From contig JAPLAE010000098.1 in NCBI GenBank assembly GCA_026393455.1, positions 1-41,205 of the forward strand: a stretch of DNA of 41,205 bases. Reading direction: 5' to 3'. Below the pieces are notes generated by a model that was not told where the DNA came from, searched no databases, and saw only the letters and a program-made list of their open reading frames with translations. Positions 2,479-12,134 of the stretch are shown piece by piece; position 1 is the first letter of the stretch; the number at the start of each line of letters is the position of its first letter. The translations under genes were made by a program, and so were the position numbers. The DNA is from Actinomycetota bacterium. GTDB taxonomy: Bacteria; Actinomycetota; Acidimicrobiia; Acidimicrobiales; Acidimicrobilacustridaceae.

Positions 2479-2501
2479 GAGAGTCAGTGTGCCGAAGGGG
2501 T

Positions 2502-3323
2502 GTGACAGTGGAGGTAAAGGCCGCTGGCCCATCTACGCTCCGTGCGGTGGATGCAAAGGAATGGCTGGGACTCCAGCCCACACACAACCCCATGCGCTGG
2601 TATTTGCCCGTTACCGAGGGCATCTGCAGTGGTCTCGGAACCCTTTTCGGAGGCTGCGGCCTTGGGGCAGCGATCGATGCCCTTGAACGGGTAACCGAGC
2701 GCCCGGTGGTGTGGGCCTGTGCGCAGTACATCAACTACACGAAGCCACCATCGGTGGTTGATCTCGACATCCGAATCGACGCATCCGGCCGCACCACCAC
2801 ACAAGCTCGGGTCACCGGGCAGGTGGGTGATTCAACGATCTTCATTGTGAACGCGTCGCTGGGCAGCCGCGAGATGGCCGAGGAAGGCCAGTGGGTGAGC
2901 CCGCCGGAAGTTCCCCGTCCGGAGGATTGTCCACCGCGCCAACTTCGGTTCGATCCCGGCAACTCCATTTCCAGCCGTCTCGATATGCGCATGGCCATTG
3001 ACGAGCCCGGCACCGGGCACACCGCATTTTGGGTGCGCATGCCCGAGATTCTCGAGGCCTCTGCTGCATCGCTCGCAGTACTTGGCGATTTCGTTCCGAT
3101 GGGCCTCGGCATGGCAATGACTTCCGAGATCAACTCCAACAGTCTTGACAACACGATTCGTGTCATGAACATCGTGCCCACCAAATGGGTGCTCGCCGAC
3201 GTTCGTATCGAAGCCGTGGCGCGCGGTTTCGGCCATGGCCATATTTATTTGTGGGCCGAAGATGGCACGCTCATGGCAACGGCAAGTCAGTCGGCCATGA
3301 TCCGCCCATGGAAAGGCAACTGA
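2502..3323 (+). CDS. Thioesterase-superfamily (acyl-CoA thioesterase-like, double hotdog) protein
   Basis: Hotdog-like sequence GLGAAIDALERVTERPVVWACAQYINYTKPPSVVDLDIRIDASGRTTTQARVTGQVGDSTIFIVNASLGSRE. Exact start uncertain (2487 or 2502). Confidence 0.75.
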   Translation: MTVEVKAAGPSTLRAVDAKEWLGLQPTHNPMRWYLPVTEGICSGLGTLFGGCGLGAAIDALERVTERPVVWACAQYINYTKPPSVVDLDIRIDASGRTTTQARVTGQVGDSTIFIVNASLGSREMAEEGQWVSPPEVPRPEDCPPRQLRFDPGNSISSRLDMRMAIDEPGTGHTAFWVRMPEILEASAASLAVLGDFVPMGLGMAMTSEINSNSLDNTIRVMNIVPTKWVLADVRIEAVARGFGHGHIYLWAEDGTLMATASQSAMIRPWKGN

Positions 3324-4323
3324 TGGCTCCGTATCGTGGCTATGGCATCACCATTCCGTTCGACCGTGTCCCGTTGCACGCGCAGCAAGAGCGCATGTCC
3401 CGTTGCACGCGCAGCAAGAGCGCATTTCCGAACTCGCCGACTTGGGTTACACCGATGCCTGGTCGGCCGAAACCGATGGCACCGATGCATTCACTCCGCT
3501 TGTGCTGACTTCTCAGTGGGCGCCGTCATTGCGGCTCGGCACGGCGATTGTTCCCGTGTTTACTCGCGGCCCCGCGGTAATTGCGCAGAGCGCGTTGGCT
3601 ATGGCTCAAGCCGCGCCCGGAAGATTCGTACTGGGGCTTGGAACATCGTCCGATGTCATTGTTGGCCGCTGGAACGGAATCGCCTTCGACGAGCCCTATA
3701 AGCGGGTTCGTGACACCGTGCGGTTTGTGCGCGCCGCACTTACCGGCGAAAAGGTCACGGAAACCTATGACACGTTTTCTATTCGTGGTTTCAAACTGAA
3801 TGCCGCCGCGGAACAACCTGTTCCGATTCTCATTGCCGCATTGCGTGAAGGCATGTTGAATCTCGCTGGCCGTGAAGGCGACGGTGCAATTATCAATTGG
3901 CTTTCGGCCGACGATGTTGCTCGTGTTGCGCCAATCGTCACCGCCCATGGCGACGATAAGGAAATTGTTGCTCGAATCTTCGTCGTTCCATCGGAAGACG
4001 CCGAGACGGTGCGCGCGCAAGCGAAGTTTGCGATTGCGGCCTATCTCAATGTGCCCGTGTATGCGGCGTTCCACGAATGGTTAGGCCGTGGTCCCCAACT
4101 GCAGGGGATGTGGGATGCGTGGAAAGCCGGCGATCGGGCCGCTGCGTTAGAGGCAATCCCCGACGAGGTTGTCGATCAACTCATCGTGCATGGCTCCTAT
4201 GCACAGTGTCGTGCGCATATTCAGCGCTATATCGACAACGGCGTTACAACGCCTGCGCTCGCTGTGCTCGGTATGGCTGGTGTCGACACCGAAGAAGCTG
4301 TGCGAGAACTCACTCCTCGCTGA
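3323..4323 (+). pseudogene. LLM class F420-dependent oxidoreductase, frameshifted near N-terminus by a 29-bp tandem duplication
   Basis: ATG at 3323 overlaps the upstream stop (TGATG). MAPYRGYGITIPFDRVPLHAQQER reads into the wrong frame after copy 1; removing one 29-bp copy gives MAPYRGYGITIPFDRVPLHAQQERISELADLGYTDAWSAETDGTDAFTPL... in frame with the remaining ORF (3403-4323). Confidence 0.85.
3367..3425. repeat. Perfect tandem duplication, 29-bp unit x2
   Basis: gtcccgttgcacgcgcagcaagagcgcat at 3368-3396 and again at 3397-3425, identical; one extra shared t at 3367. Confidence 0.98.
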
Positions 4324-4665: not shown

Positions 4666-5661
4666 TTAAAACCGCCCCGCCGAAGCATTGATGGTGTCGG
4701 CAATGACATTCATGCGGTCTTGGCCCCAAGGCATCGGCATGACGATGGGGACTTCGACGCCGGCGTCGACATAGGCCTGCACGGTGGCGTGCACATGTGC
4801 AGCGTCGCCCAGAACATCGATGGCATCGACCATGCGATCAGAGACCGCTGCCAGGGCGGCTTCGCGATTGCCAACGGCATGACATTCGCGTACTTGTGCA
4901 ACTTCGTCGGCGAAACCGGCGCGAATGAAATTGTCGGCATAGGAATCAACCACGATGTAGGAGAAAAGATCTTTGCGGGCAGAATCGCGATGAGGCTCGG
5001 GATCGGTGACGCCAACATGTACGTAGCCGTAGACCTTTGCTTCGCCGCCAGCGCGTACTTGGTCGACCGACCACGGAACATGCGACGCGGGCAGATAGTT
5101 AAGTAGGACACCGTCGGCGAGTTCACCGGCCAGTTTCAACATGCGTGGATTGAGAGCGGCGAGGATAATTTTTGGTCGCTTCTCGCCAAGGCGAACGCCC
5201 AAACGGAAACCCTTGACGGTGTGGAAGTCGCCGGCAAAGTCGACTTTCTCTCCGCTGAGACACATCCGAAGCAACGTGAGTTCTTCACGCATCTGAGCCA
5301 GTGGGCGATCGCCGTATTCGGCACCGTGCCAGCGAGACACCACCGCGGGGGAGGACACGCCGATACCGAGGAAGATGTCGCGCTCAGGGTGGAGAGCTTG
5401 GAGCGTGGCCGCCCCCATGGCGGTCACCCCTGGAGTCCGAAGTTGGGTGGCGAGTACGCCGGTACCAAGACCGAGCGTGGGCTGAGCAGCGCCAATTGCG
5501 GCCAAGGTGGAGAATGCTTCGAGACCAGTGGTTTCGGCGACCCAGAACGAGGAATAGCCGGCACCTGCGGCCCAATCGGCAGCGGTGAACCCGGCGCTGG
5601 GGCCGAGTGCAGCGAAACTCGCGAAGGTGAGACCCAGTGGATGGGCAGGCGCAGCGCTCAT
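4666..5661 (-). CDS. LLM class F420-dependent oxidoreductase
   Basis: SFAALGPSAGFTAADWAAGAGYSSFWVAETTGLEAFSTLAAIGAAQPTLGLGTGVL...RDIFLGIGVSSPAVVSRWHGAEYGDRPLAQMREELTLLRMCLSGEKVDFAG. Confidence 0.9.
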   Translation of the reverse strand: MSAAPAHPLGLTFASFAALGPSAGFTAADWAAGAGYSSFWVAETTGLEAFSTLAAIGAAQPTLGLGTGVLATQLRTPGVTAMGAATLQALHPERDIFLGIGVSSPAVVSRWHGAEYGDRPLAQMREELTLLRMCLSGEKVDFAGDFHTVKGFRLGVRLGEKRPKIILAALNPRMLKLAGELADGVLLNYLPASHVPWSVDQVRAGGEAKVYGYVHVGVTDPEPHRDSARKDLFSYIVVDSYADNFIRAGFADEVAQVRECHAVGNREAALAAVSDRMVDAIDVLGDAAHVHATVQAYVDAGVEVPIVMPMPWGQDRMNVIADTINASAGRF

Positions 5662-11102: not shown

Positions 11103-12134
11103 ATGAAGTTCGGCATGCAAATTGATTACGCGGGCGGTTTTGCTGAATCTGCCGCCAAGGTCGCGGACTATGAAAAAGCGGGCCTTGATATCGCGTGGGT
11201 GGCCGAGGCCTACGGGTTTGATGCCCCGACATTCATGGGTTATCTCGCAGCGAAGACCGAGTCCATAACAATCGGTGCTGGCATTCTCCCCATCTACACG
11301 CGCACGCCGACATTGATGGCGATGACGGCGGCCAGCATGGACATGCTCACCAACGGGCGTTTCATCCTTGGACTCGGTGCTTCGGGCCCGCAGGTCATTG
11401 AAGGCTTTCATGGCGTGAGGTACGACGCCCCGCTCGGACGCACGCGTGAGATCATCGATATCTGTCGAATTGTCTGGAAACGCGAACGCGTCACCTACGA
11501 CGGCAAGTATTACCAACTGCCATTGCCAGCCGGTGAAGGAACCGGCTTGGGTAAACCGCTCAAGATGATTGCCAAGCCAATTCGTGAAGACATTCCGGTA
11601 TGGATCGCGTCGCTCGGTCCGAAAAACGTCGAGATGACTGCCGAGATCGCCAACGGCTGGTTGCCAATCTTTTACATGCCCGAACGCGCCAACGATGTGT
11701 GGGGTGCCGACCTTGCCGCCGGCATGGCCAAGCGCGACCCAAATCTCGGTCCGCTTGAAATTTGTGCCGGCGGTTTAGTTGCTATTGGTGACGACAAGTC
11801 CGACATCGCAGAGCTGGCGCGACCGATGGTTGCTCTCTATGTGGGCGGCATGGGCGCAAAGGGGCGCAACTTCTACAACGACCTCATGTGCCGTTACGGC
11901 TATGAAGAGGAAGCGGAAAAGATTCAGGATCTCTACCTCGAGGGCAAGAAGGATGAAGCCGCAGCGCTTGTTCCTTCGGAGTTTCTAAAACTCACCAACC
12001 TGTGCGGGCCTGAAGGATTTGTACGCGAACGCATCGAGGCCTACGCCGCCGCGGGTGTGAATGTGCTCAACATCATCCCTGTGGGCGAGAACCCCACCGC
12101 GATGATTGAAAAGTTGAAGACCTGGGCTTCGTGA
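11103..12134 (+). CDS. LLM class F420-dependent oxidoreductase
   Basis: MKFGMQIDYAGGFAESAAKVADYEKAGLDIAWVAEAYGFDAPTFMGYLAAKTESITIGAGILPIYTRTPTLMAMTAASMDMLTNGRFILGLGASGPQVIEGFHGV. Confidence 0.95.
   Translation: MKFGMQIDYAGGFAESAAKVADYEKAGLDIAWVAEAYGFDAPTFMGYLAAKTESITIGAGILPIYTRTPTLMAMTAASMDMLTNGRFILGLGASGPQVIEGFHGVRYDAPLGRTREIIDICRIVWKRERVTYDGKYYQLPLPAGEGTGLGKPLKMIAKPIREDIPVWIASLGPKNVEMTAEIANGWLPIFYMPERANDVWGADLAAGMAKRDPNLGPLEICAGGLVAIGDDKSDIAELARPMVALYVGGMGAKGRNFYNDLMCRYGYEEEAEKIQDLYLEGKKDEAAALVPSEFLKLTNLCGPEGFVRERIEAYAAAGVNVLNIIPVGENPTAMIEKLKTWAS

Follow-up and report, generated by a model that had tools for sequence, protein, structure and literature searches.

The window analysed here, 41,205 bp long, is the entire contig C22 of a draft actinobacterial genome that comprises 2.28 Mb in 152 contigs and is 82.86% complete. 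On its forward strand, an acyl-CoA thioesterase-like gene (2487-3323, domain match to 4HBT_3C) overlaps the start of a gene for an LLM-class F420-dependent oxidoreductase, the stop codon of the first and the ATG of the second (3323) sharing the sequence TGATG. Beginning 45 bases inside the oxidoreductase gene, the 29-bp unit GTCCCGTTGCACGCGCAGCAAGAGCGCAT is present as a perfect tandem pair, with copy 1 at 3368-3396 and copy 2 directly adjoining it at 3397-3425, both on the forward strand and with 0 mismatches between them. A match of this length is not expected by chance (0 in 100 shuffles of the sequence), and the pair is the top tandem array of the window, with a TRF score of 119 vs 46-50 for the other three. 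The ends of the unit share an imperfect 5-bp match, TGTCC/TTTCC, while the exact flanking homology at the site is 1 bp.

The duplication breaks the oxidoreductase gene. The frame from the conserved start codon runs from 3323 to 3508 on the forward strand, is out of frame past copy 1 and encodes 61 residues. The rest of the gene is open to 4323 and, read from a TTG at 3403 within copy 2, encodes 306 residues (3403-4323, forward strand) that match TIGR03841 and PF00296; the use of this TTG as a restart codon is possible on paper only. The two copies, the early stop, the intact remainder and the position of the TTG had all been described in a first-pass annotation, and each is borne out here.

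The naming of the gene in that annotation as an F420-dependent LLM oxidoreductase is likewise upheld. The protein scores 278.9 bits against TIGR03841 (F420_Rv3093c), for which the curated cut-off is 213.65, and passes it even without the N-terminus, and it matches PF00296 with an E value of 1.9e-55. Distant matches in the PDB are methylenetetrahydromethanopterin reductases and F420-dependent glucose-6-phosphate dehydrogenases, and the binding of F420 is predicted from the family. The enzyme is unremarkable within this known family, and the window gene belongs to the F420_Rv3093c subfamily itself, from which it differs in its broken frame and in nothing else. A scan of a viral collection with the protein has returned no relative.

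The site is covered in 16 of the 20 other genomes of the genus. In all 16, the 29-bp unit occurs once, without the extra copy found here, and the reading frame, of 323 or 324 residues from the same start, is intact. Across ~7 kb surrounding the site, this genome has no large extra piece relative to its close relatives other than the 29-bp insert. The extra copy is therefore specific to this genome, which is what the comparison with sister genomes proposed in the first-pass annotation would be expected to give for either a mutation or an artefact. Comparison of the gene past the repeat with its four closest relatives gives dN/dS ratios of 0.025-0.048, and this remainder is under strong purifying selection with no sign of decay. 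Relaxed selection has been rejected because dN/dS stays low. With the gene under purifying selection, the extra copy must be spurious or of very recent origin, and a genuine duplication of so recent a date would likewise show no decay.

Three readings of the pair had been offered in the first-pass annotation, namely a recent mutation, a reversible slippage switch and an artefact of assembly or sequencing, and the comparison with relatives leaves the second of these without support. In such a switch, resembling phase variation, the oxidoreductase would be turned on and off by the gain and loss of a 29-bp copy. A direct repeat of 29 bp can in principle recombine to one copy and, as in the slipping tandem repeats of phase-variable genes, the unit lies within a reading frame and is not a multiple of three. 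Those systems differ from the present case, which has two copies only, no variation in copy number among relatives (none of the 16 has more than one), a unit of ordinary coding sequence rather than of low complexity, and an atypical target, since the product is a cytosolic-type oxidoreductase and the gene is neither a surface nor a restriction gene. Taken with the location of the remaining duplications of the genome, described below, in housekeeping genes, these differences make a switch extremely improbable.

The 29-bp pair is not isolated. Perfect tandem duplications have been scanned in 884 kb of this genome, in sampled stretches, and in 952 kb from five relatives. Six perfect duplications of exactly two copies, with units of 19, 29, 43, 50, 60 and 72 bp, are found in the 884 kb, so that there are at least five beyond that of the window; this count leaves out two in-frame repeats of low complexity as well as a 22-bp repeat near a glutamine synthetase gene, which is shared with a relative. 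The 50-bp duplication (G000:C1, L101:3688-3787) affects the end of a thiolase-family gene, changing the C-terminus of the product. The 72-bp duplication (G000:C9, L109:2948-3093) adds 24 residues near the start of folK, and the 43-bp duplication (G000:C38, L159:16083-16169) splits sdhB. The 19-bp duplication (G000:C73, L174:5885-5922) is located just upstream of the gene for cytochrome oxidase subunit I, and the 60-bp duplication (G000:C79, L180:540-659) in an MFS transporter gene. All five are missing from the aligned relatives, where a gap exactly as long as the unit occupies the corresponding position; L225, one of the five relatives aligned at the thiolase-family site, is aligned only from copy 2 onward. 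Three of the six duplications break the frame within a gene, and the sequences hit are unrelated and irrespective of gene function. Among the six distances to contig ends, no clear enrichment of duplications near the ends is seen.

The 952 kb from relatives hold one comparable case, with a period of 25 bp, and the remainder of their repeats are mostly in-frame and of low complexity. The comparable case, in G016, is an exact tandem duplication (L218:8156-8207) at the end of queA that overlaps the stop codon. The contrast in counts is modest (6 vs 1, P about 0.05); for periods of at least 28 bp it is 5 vs 0 with P 0.026, a cut-off that was picked after the data had been seen. The glutamine synthetase gene has the 22-bp repeat at its end in this genome and in G016 alike (L255:16545-16595 and L211:4458-4517), and the repeat looks genuine.

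These counts bear on the possibility of a genuine recent tandem duplication in the population, arising by slippage or end joining, that would either inactivate the oxidoreductase or leave a restart at TTG 3403 and an enzyme lacking the first barrel strand. The identity of the copies, the intact and conserved frame downstream and the short imperfect match at the unit ends are in keeping with such an event, and the single copy in all sisters is what a new mutation predicts. Against it, the five further events in 884 kb would likewise need to be both real and abundant. In searches of the genome, sdhB is found at one locus only, the one split by the 43-bp duplication, and folK once only, in the form extended by the 72-bp duplication, and a viable population would hardly be expected to carry such damage in its consensus. 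The homology left by slippage is usually longer than that seen here. The overhang of identity past the two copies is 0, 0, 0, 1, 1 and 2 bp at the six sites, approximately the chance level, and a homology-driven cause has been rejected on these grounds. We therefore regard a genuine duplication as unlikely. A further possibility is a mutator lineage in which exact tandem duplications of 19-72 bp arise without flanking homology, for instance through staggered breaks that are filled in and then end-joined, and are tolerated in core genes; this we consider very unlikely.

Evidence on the assembly itself comes from the sole internal run of N in the sample. This run has 48 N (G000:C56, L267:4783-4830) where four relatives have 2 bp, which shows that the assembly is a scaffolded one and that, in this single example, the size of the gap is overestimated by 46 bp. 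The excess of 46 bp falls in the size range of the duplications, 19 to 72 bp. Two of the six duplication sites also have a second, related contig in the draft. Contig C78 (G000:C78:1-288) carries a 96% match that stops 12 bp before the 60-bp duplication, and contig C128 (G000:C128:7471-7909) carries a 91% match in which the 19-bp unit stands only once. These second contigs point to mixed strains or contamination in the draft genome, and the assembly may have been interrupted at such sites by the presence of related populations in the sample. A cross-species join has been considered for the window and is not indicated, since identity to relatives is much alike to the left and to the right of the join.

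Based on these observations, the second 29-bp copy is very probably an artefact of scaffolding or gap filling, neither a mutation nor a switch. This reading accounts for how many cases there are, for their occurrence regardless of gene function, for the missing homology and for the oversized gap; among the three readings offered at first, the five further duplications and the 46-bp excess speak for the artefact. In the proposed sequence of events, two contig ends that truly abut or overlap would be joined by the scaffolder with an oversized gap, and reads would then be used to close this gap from its two edges, or the ends would be joined untrimmed, so that a short stretch is written twice. 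The filling of oversized gaps would give rise to the duplications in general, with the 29-bp site among such cases. The gap-filling step is one that we infer. The organism itself probably carries an ordinary single-copy gene for an LLM-class F420 oxidoreductase, as all the relatives do, and this gene would be translationally coupled to the upstream thioesterase gene.

Errors of a related kind have been described in metagenome assemblies, in which Ns are inserted despite overlapping flanks with duplication of sequence, and in which the numbers of local repeats are wrong (PMC7111523, Chen et al. 2020). Such errors carry incorrect gene sequences into databases (PMC7111523). The present case resembles these local errors in that a short stretch is doubled at a join, protein-coding genes are made wrong and the draft is scaffolded. 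It differs in that no Ns stand between the copies, so that gap filling or an untrimmed join must be assumed. A literature search for this exact gap-filling artefact has returned only these related errors (PMC7111523).

The 29-bp duplication is thus most likely no real feature of the organism. If it is an artefact, frame-broken genes in this and similar drafts should not be taken for pseudogenes or switches until the reads have been checked, and a cheap test for the artefact is an extra copy that is absent from relatives and recurs across unrelated genes of one assembly. If the duplications are real, a bacterium that produces exact tandem duplications without homology merits study.

Some observations concern the surroundings of the gene and its relatives. 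The 41-kb contig carries three luciferase-like (PF00296) oxidoreductase genes, at 3403-4323, 4666-5661 (reverse strand) and 11103-12134, and two of the three are TIGR03841 neighbours in facing orientation. A block of ~320 bp at 911-1230 of the window has no aligned counterpart in the closest relatives G015/G016 and G013, while both of its flanks have one; the block spans the start of an open reading frame (983-2260) that has no Pfam match. Relatives in public records are mostly metagenome drafts of actinobacteria from freshwater and similar sources, including Acidimicrobiales and Microthrixaceae. Several drafts titled 'Bifidobacterium breve' (L021, L022, L035 and others) carry close relatives of this actinobacterial gene within this genus, and their titles look misnamed.
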